A model generated the notes under the pieces. That model had not been told where the DNA came from. It was given only the letters and a program-made list of their open reading frames with translations, and did no database searches. Positions 6,762 through 15,337 of a DNA stretch of 64,000 nucleotides are shown one piece after another. The stretch comes from Streptomyces fradiae (GTDB lineage Bacteria; Actinomycetota; Actinomycetes; Streptomycetales; Streptomycetaceae): the NCBI RefSeq assembly GCF_041270065.1, contig NZ_CP065958.1, forward strand, positions 6,696,001 through 6,760,000, read 5' to 3'. Every line of letters starts with the position of its first letter. Positions within the stretch are counted from its first letter, which is position 1. A program made the translations under genes and the position numbers.

Positions 6762-9700
6762 GTGGCGAGCATGCCGGCAGCGCGCGGCACCCGTCCGCAC
6801 GGGGCGGCGGGTGCGCCTGGCGGACCGGAGGAGGCCGGGGAAGCGGCCGCACCCGGAGGCCGGGCCGCCTCCGGCGGACCTGCCGTTCCGGGTGGCCCCG
6901 CCCGGTCAGGCGGACCCGCCATGCACAGCTCGTCCGTCGTGTCCGGCCCACCGGCCGGGCCCGGCGTCGACCCGCTGGGTGATCCCTTCCTCCGGACCCG
7001 GTTCGTGCCGCCGGCGATTCCCACCACCTTTCTGCGGCGGCCGCGCCTCGCGGAGCGGCTGGGCGGCGAGGGGCGGGTGCCGGGGACTCCGCTCACCGTG
7101 GTCGAGGGCTGCGCGGGGGCGGGGAAGACGTTGCTGGCCGCGGACTGGGCCGCGGGCCTGGACCGGCCGGCCGCCTGGCTCACGCTCGACGCGGCGATCC
7201 AGGGGCCCGGGATGTTCTGGGCGCACTTCCTGCAGGCGCTGCGCGCCGCCGGGATGCCGGTCGGGGCGGAGGCAGGACCGGCCGCCGGGCCCGGGCGGGG
7301 GGATCCGGCGCTGCCGGCCCGGCTCGCCGCGGAGCTCGCCGGACTCGACCGGCCGGTGACGGTGGTCATCGACGAGTTCGACCGGATGACCGCGCCCGAG
7401 ACGGCGCGGCAGCTGGAGTTCGTCCTGCACCACGCCGGCCCGGGACTGCGCCTCGTCCTGGTCACCCGTACCGAACCGCTGCTCCCGCTGCACCGCTACC
7501 GGGTGGCCGGGGAGATCACCGAGATCCGGGACGCCGACCTGGCCTTCACCCCCGAGGAGGCCGTCACGCTGCTCGCGCGGCACGGGCTCGATCTGTCCGC
7601 CGCCGCGGCGGCGGCACTGGTGGAGCGCACCCGCGGCTGGGCGGCGGGCCTCCGGCTGAGCGCCCTGGCCGCCCGGCTCAGCCCGGACCCGGAGCTCTAC
7701 CTCAAGGAGTTCGAGGCCGACCGCGGCACGATCGCCGACTTCCTGCTCGCCGAGGTGCTCGAACGGCAGCCGCAGCAGACCCAGGACCTGCTGCTCCGCG
7801 TCAGCGTCCTGGACCGCTTCCACCCGGAGCTCGCCGACGCCCTGACCGGCCGCCGCGACGCCGCGCCGATCCTCGCCGGACTGCTCCGCGACAACGCGTT
7901 CGTGGAGGAGTTCGACCACGGCTGGTACGCGCTCCATCCGCTGTTCCGGGAGATCCTCCGGGCCCATCTGCGCCGCCGCTCGCCCGGACTGGAACGCCAA
8001 CTGCACCGCCGCGCGGCCCGCTGGCTGCGCGGCTCCGGCGCGCTGCCGGAGACCCTGGCCCAGGGAGCCGCCGCCGGGGACTGGACCTTCGCCGCCGGCG
8101 CCCTGGTCGACGACCTGGCGATCGGGCAGCTCTTCACCGGGCCCCGCTCGGACGAGCTGGAGGCGCTGTTCGCCGGCCTCGACGCCCGGACCCCCGGCCC
8201 GGCCGCGGACCTCGTCCGCGCCGCGCGCGCCCTGACCCGTAACGACCTCGACCGGGGCCTCGCCCACCTCCACCACGCCGAGGAACAGCTGACCGCCGCC
8301 GACGCCCGTGACGACGCCCGCGACGACGCGGCGGCCCGGCTCGGCTGCGCCCTGCTCACCGCCCTCGCGGGCCGCCTCGCCGGCTCGGCGCGTACGGCGG
8401 AACGGGCCGCCGCGACCGCCTCGGACCTGCTCCTGCAGGTGCCCGCCCCGCTCCTGGACGAGCACCCCGAGTTCCTCGCCCTGCTCCAGACCCATCTGGG
8501 CTCCTCCCTGCTCTGGGCCGGCCGCTTCGACGAGGCACGGGCCGCCCTCGCCGCCGTGACCGCCGGGCCCGGCGTCGCCGCCACGGCGCTGCCGCTGCGG
8601 GACGCCTTGGAGCATCTGGCCCTCATCGACTACCTCGACGGCTGGCCGGCCCGGGCGGAGCGCCGGCTCCGCGCGGCGACCGCCGCCGCCGAGCGCTGCG
8701 GTGCCCCCGTGCCGGCCGGCACCGGACTCGGCCGGCTCGTCCTCGCCGCGGTCGCCGTGGAGCGCGGCGACACGCGCCGGGCCGAGGCCCTGCTGCGGCG
8801 CCCGCCCGACGCCCCGGACCCGGAGCCGGACACCGTCGGGTACCCCGGCGCGTACAAGGGCCGGTACCCCGGCGCGTACCCGGGCCCGCACCTCGGCCCG
8901 TACCCCGACCCGGACACGCACCCGACCCCGGACCTGCCCTTCGGCCCGTACCCGGGCCTGTACTCCGGCCCGCACCCCGACCCGGACGCGCGCCCGGCAT
9001 CGGACCCGACCCTCGACCCGTACCCCGACCCGACCTCGCACCGGACCCCGGACCTGACCTTCGGCCCGCACCCGTCCCCGGACCGCGACCCGGACACGCA
9101 CCCGACCCCGGACCTGCCCCCGTACCCGCACCCGGACCCCGACCCCGTGACGGCCGCGGGCCGTCGTCTCGCCACCACCCGGCTGCTCCTCGCCCGGGGG
9201 CACACCCGGGCCGCCCTCACCGCCGCGGCGCGACGCATTCCCGCCGCCGAGGACTCCCCGTGGGACCGGGGCCACGCCGCCCTGACGGCCTCGGCCGCCC
9301 ATCTGGCGGCAGGCAGCCCCGAAGCCGCCGCCGAGGTCCTGCGGGCGGTGGCCGACGACCAGCCGCTGTGCCGGATCGCCGCCGCCCGGGCGTACCTCGC
9401 GGCCGGGGACCGCGCCACCGCCCTCAGCCTCCTCGACGGCCTGCCCGGACCGGGGCACACCGGCCCGGCGGTGTCCGTGCGTGCCGCGCTGGTGCGCGCC
9501 CGGGTCGCGCGCCTTGAGGGCGACCTCGCCTCCGTACACCGGCTGCTCGGCCGGGCCCTCCGGGAGGCCGGGCCGGAGGAACTGCGGCGCCCGTTCCTGG
9601 AGGCCGGGCCCTGGATCGCCCCGTTCCTGGCGGCGCCGTCGCTGCGGCCGCTCGCCGCGGGCTGGCTCGCCCCCGGGCCCGCACCCGGCCCCGCCCCCGC

Positions 9701-9914
9701 CCCCGTGCCCGAGGCACCCGTCGAGCCGCTGAGCGCCCGCGAGCGTGACGTACTGAGCCGGCTCGCCCGGACGATGTCCACCGAGGAGATCGCCGCCGAT
9801 CTCTACGTGTCGGTCAACACGGTCAAGACCCACCTCAAGAGCGTCTACCGGAAGCTGTCGGTCCACCGGCGCAACGAAGCGGTGCGCCGGGCCCGCGACC
9901 TCGGCCTCCTCTGA
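6762..9914 (+). CDS. LAL-type LuxR family transcriptional regulator (MalT-like), with internal proline/aspartate repeat
   Basis: A 1050-residue ATP-binding regulator. Order: about 60 residues of low-complexity Gly/Pro/Ala; NB-ARC-like ATPase with Walker A GCAGAGKT at 116-123 and Walker B VVIDEFDRM near 204; a long helical-repeat sensor region; C-terminal LuxR HTH (LSARERDVLSRLA to LSVHRRNEAVRRARDLGLL, about 990-1050). The closest well-known architecture is MalT. Residues about 687-796 are a Pro/Asp/His/Tyr repeat unlike the family and probably a linker expansion. The GTG at 6762 and ATG at 6771 are both possible; ATG 6921 would drop the low-complexity head. It faces the MFS operon and is the best candidate for its activator. 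Confidence 0.9.
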   Translation: MASMPAARGTRPHGAAGAPGGPEEAGEAAAPGGRAASGGPAVPGGPARSGGPAMHSSSVVSGPPAGPGVDPLGDPFLRTRFVPPAIPTTFLRRPRLAERLGGEGRVPGTPLTVVEGCAGAGKTLLAADWAAGLDRPAAWLTLDAAIQGPGMFWAHFLQALRAAGMPVGAEAGPAAGPGRGDPALPARLAAELAGLDRPVTVVIDEFDRMTAPETARQLEFVLHHAGPGLRLVLVTRTEPLLPLHRYRVAGEITEIRDADLAFTPEEAVTLLARHGLDLSAAAAAALVERTRGWAAGLRLSALAARLSPDPELYLKEFEADRGTIADFLLAEVLERQPQQTQDLLLRVSVLDRFHPELADALTGRRDAAPILAGLLRDNAFVEEFDHGWYALHPLFREILRAHLRRRSPGLERQLHRRAARWLRGSGALPETLAQGAAAGDWTFAAGALVDDLAIGQLFTGPRSDELEALFAGLDARTPGPAADLVRAARALTRNDLDRGLAHLHHAEEQLTAADARDDARDDAAARLGCALLTALAGRLAGSARTAERAAATASDLLLQVPAPLLDEHPEFLALLQTHLGSSLLWAGRFDEARAALAAVTAGPGVAATALPLRDALEHLALIDYLDGWPARAERRLRAATAAAERCGAPVPAGTGLGRLVLAAVAVERGDTRRAEALLRRPPDAPDPEPDTVGYPGAYKGRYPGAYPGPHLGPYPDPDTHPTPDLPFGPYPGLYSGPHPDPDARPASDPTLDPYPDPTSHRTPDLTFGPHPSPDRDPDTHPTPDLPPYPHPDPDPVTAAGRRLATTRLLLARGHTRAALTAAARRIPAAEDSPWDRGHAALTASAAHLAAGSPEAAAEVLRAVADDQPLCRIAAARAYLAAGDRATALSLLDGLPGPGHTGPAVSVRAALVRARVARLEGDLASVHRLLGRALREAGPEELRRPFLEAGPWIAPFLAAPSLRPLAAGWLAPGPAPGPAPAPVPEAPVEPLSARERDVLSRLARTMSTEEIAADLYVSVNTVKTHLKSVYRKLSVHRRNEAVRRARDLGLL
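8880..9146 (+). repeat. In-frame degenerate repeat in the LAL regulator
   Basis: Repeated codons for motifs like YPDPDTHPTPDLP, FGPYPG and PHPDPD. Bases 8906-8939 and 9086-9119 are identical over 34 bp at an offset of 180 bp, and a diverged copy starts near 9021. Unit lengths are multiples of three, so the reading frame is kept. Nothing comparable occurs in the flanking helical repeats. Confidence 0.85.
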
Positions 9915-9932: not shown

Positions 9933-9955
9933 GCCTCACCCGCCGCGGGTGAGGC
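9933..9955 (+). promoter_or_regulatory. TCACCC-N5-GGGTGAGGC element before the MFS gene
   Basis: GCCTCACCCG and CGGGTGAGGC form a perfect 10-bp inverted repeat. Read as TCACCC-N5-GGGTGA-GGC it is identical in layout to 11635-11654. It ends 22 bases before TGTGAT (9975-9980), a possible -10, which is 6 bases before GTG 9987. It could also act as a terminator for the LAL gene ending at 9914. Confidence 0.6.
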
Positions 9956-9986
9956 ACCGGACCGGCCTTTCGGCTGTGATGGCAGC

Positions 9987-11651
9987 GTGGGGGCGCCCGA
10001 CCCGGGTGGACACGAAGAGGTGGACACGGTGAGACAGTGGCGCGCGCTGATCGTCCTGGGCACGGCCCAGTTCCTGATGGTCCTGGACACCTCCGTCATG
10101 AACGTGTCCATCAGCCAGCTCGTCGAGGACTTCGACACCGAGGTGACCGCCATCCAGGCCGTCATCACCCTGTACGCCCTGGTCATGGCCGCCTTCATGA
10201 TCATCGGTGGCCGGATCGGGGACATCCTGGGCCGCCGCCGGGTCTTCCTGATCGGCATGGGCGTGTACGGCGTGGGCTCGGCCCTGACCGCCGTCGCGCC
10301 CACCCTGTGGGTCCTGGCCGTCGGCTGGTCGGTCGTCGAGGGACTCGGCGCCGCGCTGGTGCTGCCGTCGATGGCGGCCCTCGTCGCCGAGTCGTACCGC
10401 GGCAAGGACCGCTCCGTCGCGTACGGCGTCATCGGCGGCCTCGCCGGCGCCGGCATCGCGGTCGGGCCGCTGCTCGGCGGCTGGGTGACGACGTACCTCA
10501 CCTGGCGGCTGGTCTTCGCCGGCGAGGTCGTCGTGGTCCTCGCCGTCCTGCTCTTCCGGCGGGCGATCGAGGAGCACCCCGCGCCCGGTCCGCGCCCCGG
10601 CCTGGACGTCGTCGGCGCCGTGCTGTCGGCGGCCGGCCTGGCCATCGGCGTCCTCGGGGTGCTGCAGAGCACCACCTGGGGCTGGGTGGCGCCGCGCGAT
10701 CCGCCCTTCACGGTGTTCGGCTTCGCACCCACCCTGTTCGTGGTCGCCGCCGGGGTGGCGCTGCTCGCCCTGTTCCGGGCCTGGGAGAGACGGCGGGAGG
10801 AGGGCGGCCGCGACCCGCTGGTCCACCTCACCCTGCTCCGCAGACCCGTCCTGCGGTCCGGTCTGATGACCCTGCTGAGCCAGAACCTGATCCTGCTCGG
10901 CCTGTTCTTCACCATCCCGCTGTATCTGCAGGTCGTGCAGGGCTTCGACGCCTTCGAGACCGGACTGCGGCTGCTGCCGGTCTCCGTGACCATGCTCGTC
11001 GCCTCCCTCGGCGGCGCCCGGCTCGGCCGCCGGGCAGGCCCGCGCCGGGTCGTGCGGGTGGCCCTGGTGCTGCTCGTGGCGGCCATCGTCTGGCTCCTCG
11101 CCACCATCGACCCGGTCATCGACGACGGCCAGTTCTTCGGGGCCATGGCGCTCCTCGGCCTGGGCATGGGGATGCTGGCCTCGCAGCTGGGCAACGTCGT
11201 CCAGTCCAGCGCGGGGGAGGAGGAGCGCAGCGAGGTCGGCGGCCTGCAGTTCACCGCGCAGAACCTGGGATCGGCGCTCGGCACGGCCCTGATCGGCTCG
11301 ATCCTGATCGGCGCCCTGGTCCAGGCGTTCACCACGAAGGTCGAGGAGAATCCGCGCCTGTCGGAGGAGGCCCGGCAGCAGACGAGCATCGCCCTGGAGT
11401 CCGGGGTCAGCTTCGTCTCGACCGACCAGGTGCGCACCGCCGCCGAGCAGGCCGGGCTGCCCCCGCGCGAGGTGGACGCCGTCACGGAGTCGTACGCCGC
11501 CGCGCAGCTGAACGGCCTGAAGGCGGCGATCTTCGCGACCGGCGGCATCACGCTCGCGAGCTTCCTGGTGACCCGCGGACTCCCTGCCGGGAGCCGGACC
11601 ACGAGGACCCGGGACTCCGGCCGGGACTCCCAGGTCACCCCTGAAGGGTGA
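9987..11651 (+). CDS. MFS transporter, DHA2 (EmrB/QacA) family
   Basis: A 554-residue 14-helix proton-driven exporter of the drug:H+ antiporter-2 family. It shows motif A GGRIGDILGRRRVFLIG after TM2, motif D1 near TM1 (FLMVLDTSVMNVSI) and motif C-like GLAGAGIAVGPLLGGW. The cytoplasmic tail is short. Such pumps export drugs, dyes or the cell's own metabolites; the substrate is unknown. GTG 9987 is preceded by a -10-like hexamer at 6 bases, suggesting a leaderless mRNA. The in-frame GTG 10029 has GAAGAGG in front and is the alternative. It is the first gene of a row running to 13321. Confidence 0.92.
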   Translation: MGAPDPGGHEEVDTVRQWRALIVLGTAQFLMVLDTSVMNVSISQLVEDFDTEVTAIQAVITLYALVMAAFMIIGGRIGDILGRRRVFLIGMGVYGVGSALTAVAPTLWVLAVGWSVVEGLGAALVLPSMAALVAESYRGKDRSVAYGVIGGLAGAGIAVGPLLGGWVTTYLTWRLVFAGEVVVVLAVLLFRRAIEEHPAPGPRPGLDVVGAVLSAAGLAIGVLGVLQSTTWGWVAPRDPPFTVFGFAPTLFVVAAGVALLALFRAWERRREEGGRDPLVHLTLLRRPVLRSGLMTLLSQNLILLGLFFTIPLYLQVVQGFDAFETGLRLLPVSVTMLVASLGGARLGRRAGPRRVVRVALVLLVAAIVWLLATIDPVIDDGQFFGAMALLGLGMGMLASQLGNVVQSSAGEEERSEVGGLQFTAQNLGSALGTALIGSILIGALVQAFTTKVEENPRLSEEARQQTSIALESGVSFVSTDQVRTAAEQAGLPPREVDAVTESYAAAQLNGLKAAIFATGGITLASFLVTRGLPAGSRTTRTRDSGRDSQVTPEG

Positions 11652-11654
11652 GGC
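11635..11654 (+). promoter_or_regulatory. TCACCC-N5-GGGTGAGGC element before the small-protein genes
   Basis: TCACCC (11635-11640), five bases, GGGTGA (11646-11651) and GGC, overlapping the last codons of the MFS gene. It is followed after 23 bases by CACGAT (11675-11680) and, 6 bases later, ATG 11687. Position and sequence copy the element at 9936-9955, so the two transcription units are probably controlled together. Confidence 0.6.
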
Positions 11655-11686
11655 GGATGACACCCCGCGCGGCGCACGATCGCCGT

Positions 11687-11884
11687 ATGCAGTACGAGAT
11701 CCGCGTCGACGGGCACATGTCGGAGCCGCTGATCAGCGCGTTCCCCGAACTGGAGCACGTGGTGATCTCGCACGAGTCGGTGCTGTACGGCCCCGTCCTG
11801 GACGAGGCGCACCTCTACGGACTGCTGGCCCGCTTCCAGTCGCTCGGACTGCACGTGGTGGAACTGCGCCGCCTGCCCGAGTGA
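11687..11884 (+). CDS. Small conserved protein, 65 aa
   Basis: A 65-residue soluble protein starting MQYEIRVDGHMSEPLISAFPELE, ending LLARFQSLGLHVVELRRLPE. The beta-alpha-beta rhythm (EIRVDG, then VVISHESVLYGPVLDEAHLYGLLARF) suggests a small ferredoxin-like or ACT-like fold, but I do not recognise a named family. The ATG at 11687 probably starts a leaderless mRNA. It opens a row of four small genes that follow the MFS exporter. Confidence 0.75.
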   Translation: MQYEIRVDGHMSEPLISAFPELEHVVISHESVLYGPVLDEAHLYGLLARFQSLGLHVVELRRLPE

Positions 11885-11913
11885 CGGGGAGACGATTCGG
11901 AACGGAGCAAGAG

Positions 11914-12408
11914 ATGGGCACGTATCTCGCCTACGACTATCCGCTGCTGGGCGCCTTCTGGACCATGCTGTGGCTCTTCCTGTGGATCCTCTGGTTCATC
12001 CTGCTCTTCCGGATCATCGTCGACATCTTCCGCGACGACGACATGGGCGGCTGGGGCAAGGCCGGCTGGCTGGCGTTCGTGATCCTGCTGCCCTTCCTGG
12101 GCGTGCTCGTGTACGTCATCGCCCGCGGCAAGTCCATGGGCGGCCGGGAGCTCCGGCACGCCCGCGCGCAGCAGAAGGCGTTCGACGACTACGTCCGTGA
12201 GACCGCCTCCGGCGGTGGCGCCGGAGGCGGCGCCGCCCGCAGCCACGCCGACGAACTCGCCAGGCTCTCCGAACTCCGGACCCGCGGCGACATCACCGAA
12301 GAGGAGTTCCGCCGGGCCAAGGCACTGGTCCTGGGCGACGACGCCCCGTCGGGGTCCGCGTCCGCGTCCACGACCACGGCAGACACCGGCGGCGCCTCCC
12401 GTAGCTGA
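11914..12408 (+). CDS. Membrane protein with phospholipase-D-like N-terminal anchor and SHOCT domain
   Basis: A 164-residue protein with two membrane helices in residues 9-70 (FWTMLWLFLWILWFILLFRIIVDIF and KAGWLAFVILLPFLGVLVYVIARG), the hairpin seen in the PLDc_N anchor family. After a Gly/Ala linker comes a SHOCT motif, ADELARLSELRTRGDITEEEFRRAKALVLG (about residues 111-140), a short helical oligomerisation module. The ATG has GGAGCAAGAG in front. It likely acts at the cytoplasmic membrane. The gap to both neighbours is 29 bases, supporting one operon. Confidence 0.88.
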   Translation: MGTYLAYDYPLLGAFWTMLWLFLWILWFILLFRIIVDIFRDDDMGGWGKAGWLAFVILLPFLGVLVYVIARGKSMGGRELRHARAQQKAFDDYVRETASGGGAGGGAARSHADELARLSELRTRGDITEEEFRRAKALVLGDDAPSGSASASTTTADTGGASRS

Positions 12409-12437
12409 GTCACGGGAGGACGGAAAGGAGAACCGAG

Positions 12438-12890
12438 ATGGCCACCGCACACGCCTCCACCCACACGTCACGGAAGAGTTCGGCCAGCTACGCCTGGGCC
12501 GAGGGGCTGACGGCCTTCGCCGCCGTCATGCTCGGCCTGGCGGGGCTGCTCGCCATCTTCCGCGGCATCATGGCGATCGCCGAGGACGAGGTCTTCGTCA
12601 CCACGCCCAACTACGTCTTCCAGTTCGACCTGACCGGGTGGGGCTGGGTCCATCTCGGGCTCGGCATCGTCGCCGTGCTCGTGAGCGCCGGACTGTTCAT
12701 GACCCAGACCTGGGCACGCGTCCTCGGCGTGGCCATCGCCGGGCTCGTCATCATCGCCAACTTCCTCTCGCTGCCGTACTACCCGGTGTGGTCCGTCATC
12801 ATGATCGCGATGTCCGGATTCGTCATCTGGGCCCTGTGCGTCAGCCGCAAGGACGACACCGGCGCCGCCTCCGGCGGGAGCCTGTCGTGA
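12438..12890 (+). CDS. Four-helix membrane protein, DUF7144-like
   Basis: A 150-residue integral membrane protein with four hydrophobic helices: LTAFAAVMLGLAGLLAIFRGI, GWGWVHLGLGIVAVLVSAGLFM, VLGVAIAGLVIIANFLSLPYY and WSVIMIAMSGFVIWALCV. The layout and the GWVHLGLG motif match the actinobacterial DUF7144 family as I remember it. AAAGGAGAA precedes the ATG. The TGA overlaps the GTG of the next gene by four bases, so translation is probably coupled. The function is unknown; an envelope or stress role is inference. Confidence 0.82.
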   Translation: MATAHASTHTSRKSSASYAWAEGLTAFAAVMLGLAGLLAIFRGIMAIAEDEVFVTTPNYVFQFDLTGWGWVHLGLGIVAVLVSAGLFMTQTWARVLGVAIAGLVIIANFLSLPYYPVWSVIMIAMSGFVIWALCVSRKDDTGAASGGSLS

Positions 12891-13321
12891 ACGACCTGAA
12901 GTTCGAGCAGAAGCGTTCGCTGAGCCACGAGGAGGCGGCGGACCTGCTGGCCTCGCTCGCCAAGGCGTTCAAGAAGGGCGAGGAGGCCGAGCTGGCCTTC
13001 GGTGGGGGAACGCTGAGCCTGAAGGTCCCCGAAGGCTTCCGCACCGAGGTCGAGATCGAGGTCGACGGCGACGAGATCGAGATGGAGCTCGAACTGAAAT
13101 GGCGAACGGGCGGCGAGTCCGCCGCCCCCGCGCCCCCGCCCGCCGAGGCGAAAGAGGACAAGCCGAAGGAGGACAAGCCGAAGGCCGCGAAGCCCAAGGA
13201 CAAGGCCCCGAAGCCGAAGGCCGCGTCCGCCAAGCCCAAGAGCACCTCCGCGAAACCGAAGGGCAAGGGCAAGGGCAAGCGCGCCAAGCGCCGGGCCAGA
13301 CGCGCCCGCGCCGCACGGTGA
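12887..13321 (+). CDS. amphi-Trp domain protein with lysine-rich tail
   Basis: A 144-residue protein. Residues 1-76 are an amphi-Trp domain: FEQKRSLSHEEAADLLASLAKAF, then VPEGFRTEVEIEVDGDEIEMELELKW ending on the family's Trp. The rest is a Pro/Ala spacer and a strongly basic Lys/Pro/Ala tail of repeated KPK and KPKD steps ending in RAKRRARRARAAR. Such tails often bind nucleic acid or acidic polymers, which is inference here. It starts with GTG inside the stop of the upstream membrane protein and ends the row. Confidence 0.88.
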   Translation: MNDLKFEQKRSLSHEEAADLLASLAKAFKKGEEAELAFGGGTLSLKVPEGFRTEVEIEVDGDEIEMELELKWRTGGESAAPAPPPAEAKEDKPKEDKPKAAKPKDKAPKPKAASAKPKSTSAKPKGKGKGKRAKRRARRARAAR

Positions 13322-13367: not shown

Positions 13368-13994
13368 TCAGCGCCGGATCAGCCGCCGGGCCGTCGCCGT
13401 CGCCACCGCCGCCGTGCGCGAGTCCACGCCCAGCTTGGCGAAGATGTGCACCAGATGGGACTTCACCGTCGCCTGGCTCAGGAACAGCGCCTTGCTGATC
13501 TGCTGGTTCGACAGACCCTCGCCGACCAGCTGGAGCACCTCCAGCTCGCGCCGGGTCAGCGCCTCCGCCGGGGTGCGCATCCGGTCCATCAGCCGGTGCG
13601 CCACCGCCGGGGCGAGCGCCGACTGGCCGGCCGCCGCCGTCCGTACCGCCGCCGCCAGCTCCTCCGGCGGGGCGTCCTTGAGGAGATAGCCCGAGGCCCC
13701 CGCCTCCACCGCCGCCAGGATGTCCGCGTCCGAGTCGTACGTGGTCAGGACGAGGACCCGCGGCGCGCCCGGTACGGCGGTGATCGCCGCCGTCGCCTCC
13801 GAGCCGTGCATCCCCGCGCCGAACTGCAGGTCCATCAGGACCACGTCCACGCCCCCGGCGGCGGCCAGCTCGACCGCACGCTCGGCGGTCGCCGCCTCCG
13901 CGACCACGGCGAAGTCGGGCTCCGTGTCGAGGACGGCGCGCAGCCCGGCCCGTACCACCGGGTGGTCGTCGGCGAGCAGCAGTCGGACGGTCAT
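13368..13994 (-). CDS. NarL/LuxR-family response regulator
   Basis: A 208-residue two-component response regulator. The receiver has the acidic pair LLLADDHP, phospho-acceptor Asp55 in VVLMDLQFG, Thr in VLTTYD and Lys in YLLKD. The C-terminal HTH begins ALTRRELEVLQLVGEGLSNQQISKALFLSQATVKSHLVHIFAKLGV. Its ATG overlaps the stop of the histidine kinase gene (ATGA), so the pair is co-translated. The likely targets are its own locus and the adjacent ABC exporter, where a shared 13-bp motif occurs at 15228-15240 and 15881-15893. Confidence 0.95.
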   Translation of the reverse strand: MTVRLLLADDHPVVRAGLRAVLDTEPDFAVVAEAATAERAVELAAAGGVDVVLMDLQFGAGMHGSEATAAITAVPGAPRVLVLTTYDSDADILAAVEAGASGYLLKDAPPEELAAAVRTAAAGQSALAPAVAHRLMDRMRTPAEALTRRELEVLQLVGEGLSNQQISKALFLSQATVKSHLVHIFAKLGVDSRTAAVATATARRLIRR

Positions 13995-15178
13995 GCGTCG
14001 GCTCCAGCGGGGAGGGTGAGGGGCAGGGGGAGGGAGACGGCGACGGCGGCGCCCTGGCCGGGGGCGGACTCGACGGTGAAGGAACCGCCGAGCGACTCCG
14101 CGCGCGAGCGCATCGCCGGCAGCCCGAAGCCGCCCTCGGAGGAGGGGCGTACGGCCCGCAGCGCGCCCGGGTCGAACCCCTTGCCGTCGTCCACCACGTC
14201 CAGGGTCACCGAGCCGCCCATGAAGGACAGCGTGATCTCGGCCCGTGAGGCTGCGGAGTGCCGGACCGTGTTCGCGAGCGCCGACTGCGCGATCCGCAGC
14301 AGTGCCACCTCGTACGGGGTGGGCAGCTCCACCGGCGTGCCGCTCACGGAGAACCGCACGCGCGGGCCGTCCGGACCGGCCGTCCCGCACAGCCGCTCAA
14401 GTGCCCCGGCCAGCGAACCGTGCTCCAGATCGGGCGGCGTGAGCGCGCGGACGAAGCGGCGCGCCTCCGCCAGGTTGTCCTGGGCGGCCCGCCGAGCCGC
14501 GTCGATGTGCCCGGCGGCCGGCGAGCCCTCCGGCAGCGCCCGCTCGGCGGCCCGCAGCAGCAGTTGGATCGAGGACAGGCCCTGGGCCAGGGTGTCGTGG
14601 ATCTCCCGGGCGAGCCGTTCCCGCTCGGCGAGGGTTCCCGCGTGCCGCTCGGCCGCCGCGAGCTCGGCCCGGGTGGCGATCAGCTCCTCGACCATCCGCC
14701 GGCGCCGCTCGCTCTCCCGGTACAGGGCCTGGTAGCCGAGCACCGTCGCCACCGCGACCGCCGCGCCGAGCAGCGGCCCGATGAAGACGCCCGGGTTGAG
14801 CGCGGCGCCGTGCCGCACGTACGACAGGATCGCGGCGCCCGCCGTCAGGCCGACGGCCGGCAGCGACCAGCGCACCGGCAGCAGGTGCAGCTGGAGGAAG
14901 TACAGGGGGAAGGCGATCCACAGCCCGTCCGGCGTCACCCAGAGCAGCACCAGCCACGCCAGGCACAGCGTGCCCAGCCACACCGCGGCGGCCCGCTGCG
15001 ACTCCCGTACGGCGGGCAGGAACGAGCCCGCCGCGTAGACGACGCCGGTGACGACGGCCGCCGCCACTCCGGCGGCGGTGTGCGCGCGCAGCGCGGCGAG
15101 CACGAGCAGGCCCGCCATCAGCAGGTGGAGGCAGAGCCGCAGGGCGCGGAGGGCGGGGGTGAGGTGACGCGGATCCAT
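13991..15178 (-). CDS. Sensor histidine kinase (HisKA_3 type)
   Basis: A 395-residue membrane kinase. About five hydrophobic helices fill residues 15-150, with hardly any external domain, so it probably senses within or near the membrane. A dimerisation helix follows, with phospho-acceptor His193 in LAREIHDTLAQGLSSIQ. The HATPase domain has the N-box ALANTVRHSAAS and G-box DDGKGFDPG and GGFGLPAMRSRA. DesK-like kinases of this shape commonly control ABC exporters such as the one at 15956-17739. I chose ATG 15178, where the first helix begins; a GTG-type extension to 15262 is possible but has no support. Confidence 0.94.
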   Translation of the reverse strand: MDPRHLTPALRALRLCLHLLMAGLLVLAALRAHTAAGVAAAVVTGVVYAAGSFLPAVRESQRAAAVWLGTLCLAWLVLLWVTPDGLWIAFPLYFLQLHLLPVRWSLPAVGLTAGAAILSYVRHGAALNPGVFIGPLLGAAVAVATVLGYQALYRESERRRRMVEELIATRAELAAAERHAGTLAERERLAREIHDTLAQGLSSIQLLLRAAERALPEGSPAAGHIDAARRAAQDNLAEARRFVRALTPPDLEHGSLAGALERLCGTAGPDGPRVRFSVSGTPVELPTPYEVALLRIAQSALANTVRHSAASRAEITLSFMGGSVTLDVVDDGKGFDPGALRAVRPSSEGGFGLPAMRSRAESLGGSFTVESAPGQGAAVAVSLPLPLTLPAGADA

Positions 15179-15227
15179 GACCCGTCCAGCGTAGGCGGCC
15201 CCGGAGACCGGTCCGGACAATCCGGAC

Positions 15228-15240
15228 TCAACCGAAAGTT
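15228..15240 (+). promoter_or_regulatory. Shared 13-bp motif, copy 1
   Basis: TCAACCGAAAGTT, within CAAC-CGAAA-GTTG, lies between the kinase gene and the membrane protein gene at 15338. An exact copy is at 15881-15893 before the ABC exporter. It is a candidate binding site for the response regulator encoded at 13368. Confidence 0.55.
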
Positions 15241-15337
15241 GGAAACAGTCACGCCCCCACACCCGTCATGTCTCGCGTAAGCCGGAGATAACGGGCCGAT
15301 TCGGGCGCCGGACAGATCTGCCGTACGGTGCGAAATC

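Follow-up and report, generated by a model that had tools for sequence, protein, structure and literature searches.

The 64,000-nucleotide window analyzed here (Streptomyces fradiae, contig NZ_CP065958.1, positions 6,696,001 to 6,760,000 of the forward strand) carries two exact copies of the inverted repeat TCACCC-N5-GGGTGA, one lying ahead of the gene for an MFS exporter and the other ahead of a row of four genes for small proteins, the first of which encodes a conserved 65-residue protein, here called s65. On the basis of comparison with related genomes, we consider it probable that these palindromes are operators of the neighboring LAL regulator (6762-9914) and that the LAL acts on them as a class II activator. 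In the mechanism that we favor, the active LAL would be ATP bound, and probably inducer bound, and two of its LuxR-type DNA-binding domains would contact TCACC-N7-GGTGA, which would span roughly −51 to −35. Bound there, the LAL would stand in for a −35 element and bring RNA polymerase to the weak −10 hexamer downstream, giving rise to two transcripts in this window, one for the exporter (from ~9987) and one that would cover s65 and the SHOCT, DUF7144, and amphi-Trp genes (from ~11687). The features on which this argument turns are as follows.

6762..9914, plus strand: LAL (MalT-like) regulator; exact start uncertain; probable reader of the sites
9936..9952, no strand assigned: predicted operator 1, exact TCACCC-N5-GGGTGA; orthologous sites stand before the MFS gene in loci L005-L009
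9975..9980, plus strand: −10-like hexamer TGTGAT, 22 bases past operator 1; inferred transcription start ~9987
11635..11651, no strand assigned: predicted operator 2, exact TCACCC-N5-GGGTGA; conserved before s65
11675..11680, plus strand: −10-like hexamer CACGAT, 23 bases past operator 2; inferred transcription start ~11687

Conservation and spacing of the palindrome

The initial annotation of this DNA had reported the motif at both places, had seen no other copy in the window, and had proposed a regulatory site shared by the exporter and the small-protein row. Both copies were confirmed as exact inverted repeats, and no third exact copy was found in the window. Copy 1 starts 21 bases past the end of the LAL frame, and its arms extend to 11 bases (GCCTCACCCGC-C-GCGGGTGAGGC); copy 2 overlaps the stop codon of the exporter gene. 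Near-copies in the window showed no clear excess: with up to 2 mismatches there were 2, against 4.63 expected from shuffles, and with the GGC tail included and up to 3 mismatches there were 12, against 6.05 expected, a count that 2 of 100 shuffles reached. An Rfam scan of the window gave no match. In the whole genome (7.88 Mb) the exact pattern occurs at four places and a reversed control pattern at none; the two copies outside the window (L001 and L004) lie at gene ends and are not followed by a −10-like hexamer at 22 to 23 bases. A relaxed pattern matched seven places in this genome. Three of these are the palindrome TCACCTTGGCAAGGTGA (L101, L104, and L107; genome positions 1381890, 4183670, and 4187617), which also recurs in several further genomes of the genus and appears to be a distinct element that has a reader of its own.

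We found that the motif is conserved in the orthologous promoters of related Streptomyces genomes, which supports the proposal of a shared regulatory site. The comparison covered 62 loci with a SHOCT relative and 199 genomes of the same genus searched with s65, which was matched in 78 of them; 30 of these loci were fetched. Spacing was counted at the 48 loci where 150 nt or more could be read upstream of s65, searching within 250 nt and leaving out L010, the contig of which ends inside the region. The exact site TCACC[CT]-N5-[AG]GGTGA was present before s65 in 47 of the 48, the sole exception (L012) matching at 10 of 12 bases, and none of them showed a spacer of any other length between 0 and 12 bases. 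The sixth base of the half-site is mostly T in the relatives, and the common form, TCACCT-N5-GGGTGAGGC, lies ~97 nt upstream of the s65 ATG. In all, 98 such repeats were counted in 42 regions of the same genus (40 genomes), and 86 of them had the 5-base spacer.

The association of the site with s65 extends beyond the genus. Of the 394 genomes searched across the class, 71 had a relative of s65, representing 31 of 137 genera, and 52 of the 71 lie outside the genus; DNA was fetched for the stronger s65 matches only, and 49 loci were examined. In one other family (f19), full arms stand ~77 to 86 nt before s65 in 16 of 16 loci. In 7 of the 16 remaining outside-genus loci, a set that includes a Rhodococcus opacus plasmid, at least 9 of the 10 arm bases match; s65 on that plasmid is 41% identical and has TCACCATTCGAGGGTGA 132 nt upstream. 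In 14 other-family regions (12 genomes), 63 of 67 repeats had the 5-base spacer. When the 130 distinct s65 genes that had 200 nt or more of upstream sequence were grouped by similarity, the exact site preceded 73 of the 89 scoring at least 85 bits (seven more had symmetric variants and nine had neither), and the core was present before 24 of the 39 scoring 40 to 85 bits and 1 of the 2 scoring under 40 bits. The control pattern was absent upstream of all 130.

Promoter geometry and the direction of control

The initial annotation had also drawn attention to a hexamer ending in GAT behind each palindrome and to a gap of 34 to 35 bases between GGGTGA and a start codon. Both hexamers are present, and the distances are correct (34 bases to 9987 and 35 bases to 11687), but position 9987 is probably a transcription start rather than the exporter start codon, since orthologous exporters begin near window position 10020 or 10029. 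The second inferred start, 11687, coincides with the s65 ATG. The leader and ribosome site that precede s65 in relatives are missing here and in L005 (window 11652-11687), and s65 would therefore be leaderless in both genomes. The site lies 52 nt before the s65 ATG here and in L005 (SKN60), as against ~97 nt in the common form.

The distance from the site to the −10-like hexamer recurs, at an offset of 22 to 23 bases, across four promoter classes. The hexamer stood at offset 22 in 29 and at offset 23 in 9 of 52 s65 promoters, at offset 22 in 11 of 15 DUF308 promoters, at offset 23 in 19 and at offset 22 in 10 of 42 SHOCT promoters, and at offset 22 in all six MFS-type promoters (those in L131 and L140 may belong to other MFS genes). 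With the hexamer taken as −12 to −7, this offset would place the site at about −51 to −35, the placement seen with class II activators. By eye, no −35 hexamer was evident in the promoter consensus, as activation would predict.

It could instead be argued that the LAL, or the response regulator of a two-component system beside the cluster, represses through these sites, because the site reaches the −35 region and repression is known for some LALs (PMC9628970). The two-component system consists of a LuxR-type response regulator, which also carries a GerE domain, and a histidine kinase (window 13368-15262, minus strand). However, among the 62 SHOCT loci, orthologues of the kinase adjoin the cluster only in L005-L009, whereas many clusters that lack it have the sites; the two-component system is thus not their general reader. 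The nearest published relative, the MalT-like regulator of Actinoplanes, is an activator (PMC7567727), and together with the lack of an evident −35 hexamer this makes repression unlikely.

The LAL as candidate reader of the sites

The LAL has a STAND-type ATPase, a TPR region, and a C-terminal LuxR/GerE DNA-binding domain (Pfam GerE at residues 989-1044, E 1.9e-15). It matched the PDB structure of MalT (8bob_C) over residues 91-449 with E 1.7e-30; its score of 237.7 bits against the MalT profile NF003420 is below the cut-off of 537, indicating that it is not MalT proper. The suspicion in the initial annotation that this MalT-like protein reads the site gains support from the comparisons below and from a published Actinoplanes MalT-like regulator of the same architecture (PMC7567727).

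The LAL gene keeps its place next to s65 in either orientation: the two stand in tandem in most same-genus clusters, and in the 14 other-family regions they are divergent in 10 and tandem in 2. Genomes that carry s65 (n = 78) also have more N5 sites than those that do not (n = 121), with means of 5.5 and 2.83 per genome (Mann-Whitney p 1.4e-10); sites with a 4-base spacer (N4) number 9.6 and 7.4 (p 0.017). Furthermore, among 58 distinct pairs of LAL and site, the recognition helix SANTVK occurs in six LALs, all six of which go with GGCGA in place of GGTGA, both arms being changed in five. A separate clade of three has CCACC/GGTGG in two members and one changed arm in the third. The assignment of CCGCC/GGCGG to L173 is not trusted as a site.

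Several observations weigh against the LAL as reader, or limit how far the comparisons carry. The SANTVK LALs form a single clade (100/100), so that the covariation was probably one event; two SANTVK genomes retain TCACC sites, L130 before DUF7144 and L136 close to the LAL start; one arm is changed in L190, the LAL of which has helix SVNTVK; and among the other 52 pairs, L132 (helix SLNTVN) has GGCGA in one arm. One of the two tandem other-family LALs is a 73-residue HTH frame only, and 2 of the 14 other-family regions showed no LAL in the 20 kb fetched. At least 6 N5 sites are present in 14 of the 121 s65-negative genomes and 2 or fewer in 10 of the 78 s65-positive ones, and an exact N5 site is lacking from 8 of the 42 same-genus regions. 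Finally, a site is present at 8 of the 43 SHOCT loci where s65 is not in view; one of the eight, L040, belongs to the genome of cluster L017, as its second SHOCT gene.

BldM, a developmental regulator with a LuxR-type DNA-binding domain, was also considered. The half-sites of its Group I targets, TCACCC/GGGTGA, are identical to those described here (homodimer site TCACcCgnncGgGTGA; PMC4125116), and the N4 pattern is present in 199 of 199 same-genus genomes. The spacer in the BldM consensus is 4 bases rather than 5, however, and the regulon is a developmental one (PMC4125116; the N4 sites are also quoted in PMC8914203). The N4 pattern was not found upstream of s65 in the 48 loci or before the 130 distinct s65 genes, nor among the repeats of the 42 same-genus and 14 other-family regions, and the SANTVK genomes have changed arms before s65 while keeping TCACC-type N4 sites (8 in G039, 11 in G042, and 6 in G054). 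The window palindromes lack the 16-bp, 4-nt-spacer form, and we reject them as BldM operators, an assignment that now appears very unlikely. The idea that the palindromes are RNA hairpins serving as transcription terminators was our first reading, suspected because all four exact genomic copies lie at or just past stop codons, but related genomes overturned it and it can hardly be credited: no T-run follows either window copy, relatives keep a fixed distance from the site to the −10-like box, and in other families the site separates LAL and s65 genes that point away from each other, so that there is no gene end at it.

Candidate regulon and relation to known systems

The genes predicted to be controlled by the LAL in this window are the following.

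10029..11651, plus strand: MFS exporter, DHA2/EmrB type; the frame is open from 9987, but 10020 or 10029 is the likelier start
11687..11884, plus strand: s65, conserved 65-residue protein; 245 relatives; predicted ferredoxin-like fold
11914..12408, plus strand: SHOCT/PLDc_N small membrane protein; Pfam SHOCT 31.3 bits and PLDc_N 29.3 bits, both over cut-off
12438..12890, plus strand: DUF7144 membrane protein; Pfam 155.1 bits
12887..13321, plus strand: amphi-Trp domain protein with basic tail; Pfam 48.6 bits, TIGR04354 61.1 bits

The exporter matched Pfam MFS_1 with E 1.5e-55 and TIGR00711 with 192.8 bits, below the cut-off of 230.2. The amphi-Trp gene follows DUF7144 only in L005-L009 among the 62 SHOCT loci. 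More usually, the order is the LAL, often an MFS gene and a gene for a 172-residue membrane protein, s65, and then SHOCT and DUF7144, with DUF2252 (reversed) and DUF308/HdeD-like genes often lying between s65 and SHOCT. Besides s65, sites precede DUF308 (15 distinct promoters), SHOCT (42 distinct promoters), and, in L005-L009, the MFS gene. Where SHOCT lies at least 135 nt from s65 it has a site of its own in 14 of 14 s65-bearing loci, and where it lies no more than 67 nt away it has one in 0 of 5 (L005-L009). A site precedes the LAL match in L123, L131, L136, and L138; under a strict filter no LAL promoter was given a site, and none was found before the LAL in the window. In L129, of the same genus, a DUF2252 gene ~6.6 Mb from the LAL-s65 cluster of the same genome has a pair of N5 sites next to it, separated by 95 nt, and may be a remote target of the LAL. 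To judge from the predicted products, the gene set suggests a role in envelope, acid, or ion stress or in efflux, and the envelope or stress module proposed in the initial annotation would be compatible with it.

The cluster is also found on a plasmid. A mobilizable, linear plasmid of S. anulatus NBC_01417 (NZ_CP109519.1; L185) carries LAL-MFS-s65-DUF308-SHOCT-DUF7144 adjoining a transposase-family gene, with sites before s65, DUF308, and SHOCT. In another family, L251 and L252 have eight exact N5 sites each in ~20 kb, near transporter-, DUF7144-, or SHOCT-like genes (first residues or weak matches only), and no LAL was in view within those ~20 kb. The s65 protein had no match in Pfam or NCBIfam. 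Its AF2 model is confident and ferredoxin-like (mean pLDDT 92.7), but nothing in the PDB matched it at E ≤ 0.001, the best hit being a ferredoxin-like HMA domain at 8.4e-3, so that no function can be assigned from the fold. One tentative idea, which we think doubtful on present comparisons, is that s65, besides being a target, is a dedicated partner of the LAL, a small ferredoxin-like subunit for feedback or signal sensing that is expressed from the LAL's own operator-bearing promoter, with LAL, s65, and operator forming one old, mobile sensory cassette; if so, different lineages would attach different membrane genes to it.

The kind of circuit proposed here is already known. In Actinoplanes sp. 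SE50/110, the MalT-like regulator ACSP50_3915 activates a 51-gene maltose-regulated large genomic region, 42 genes being down in its deletion mutant and 39 up upon its overexpression, and its motif, TCATCC-5nt-GGATGA, ends 34.4 ± 1.0 nt before 17 transcription starts (PMC7567727). In both systems, a MalT-like LAL gene lies inside the cluster and several promoters of a single region carry palindromic hexamers separated by 5 nt; the motif-to-start distances predicted here, 34 and 35 nt, would also agree. The Actinoplanes region is likewise found in rearranged order in related species, and a class II glutamine amidotransferase gene is present both there and in the S. anulatus plasmid cluster. They differ by one base per arm in the half-site, which here is TCACC[CT] in the large majority of cases (L135 has TCATCC in one arm), and in gene content, which in Actinoplanes is, by the authors' annotation, largely amino acid metabolism (PMC7567727) and here is MFS, s65, DUF308/HdeD-like, SHOCT, and DUF7144. 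The description of the module as uncharacterized in the initial annotation thus holds only in part. Its comparison with the boxes of E. coli MalT, a regulator of the same class that binds near −35 (core GGA(T/G)GA; PMC7567727, PMC9628970), is apt for the core, but GGGTGA has one mismatch to the MalT hexamer and the arrangement here is a fixed inverted repeat.

What is new is the half-site, the gene set, its distribution, and the covariation of helix and operator. A literature search, with most subscription journals outside its scope, found no recognized description of the operator or gene set in Streptomyces and none of the gene combination. In S. coelicolor, 14 LALs have been proposed, and no operator was seen in the passages of that paper that were consulted (PMC3282765); the authors of work on SCO6993 were unable to predict a consensus (PMC9628970). 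PMC10269677 concerns a TetR regulator.

Actinomycete LALs are numerous and their operators poorly known. With a defined operator, a fixed promoter geometry, and a natural change of recognition helix, LAL regulons would become predictable from sequence and their specificity open to direct tests, and several unannotated proteins (s65, SHOCT, DUF7144, DUF308/HdeD-like, and DUF2252) would be joined as one candidate regulon.

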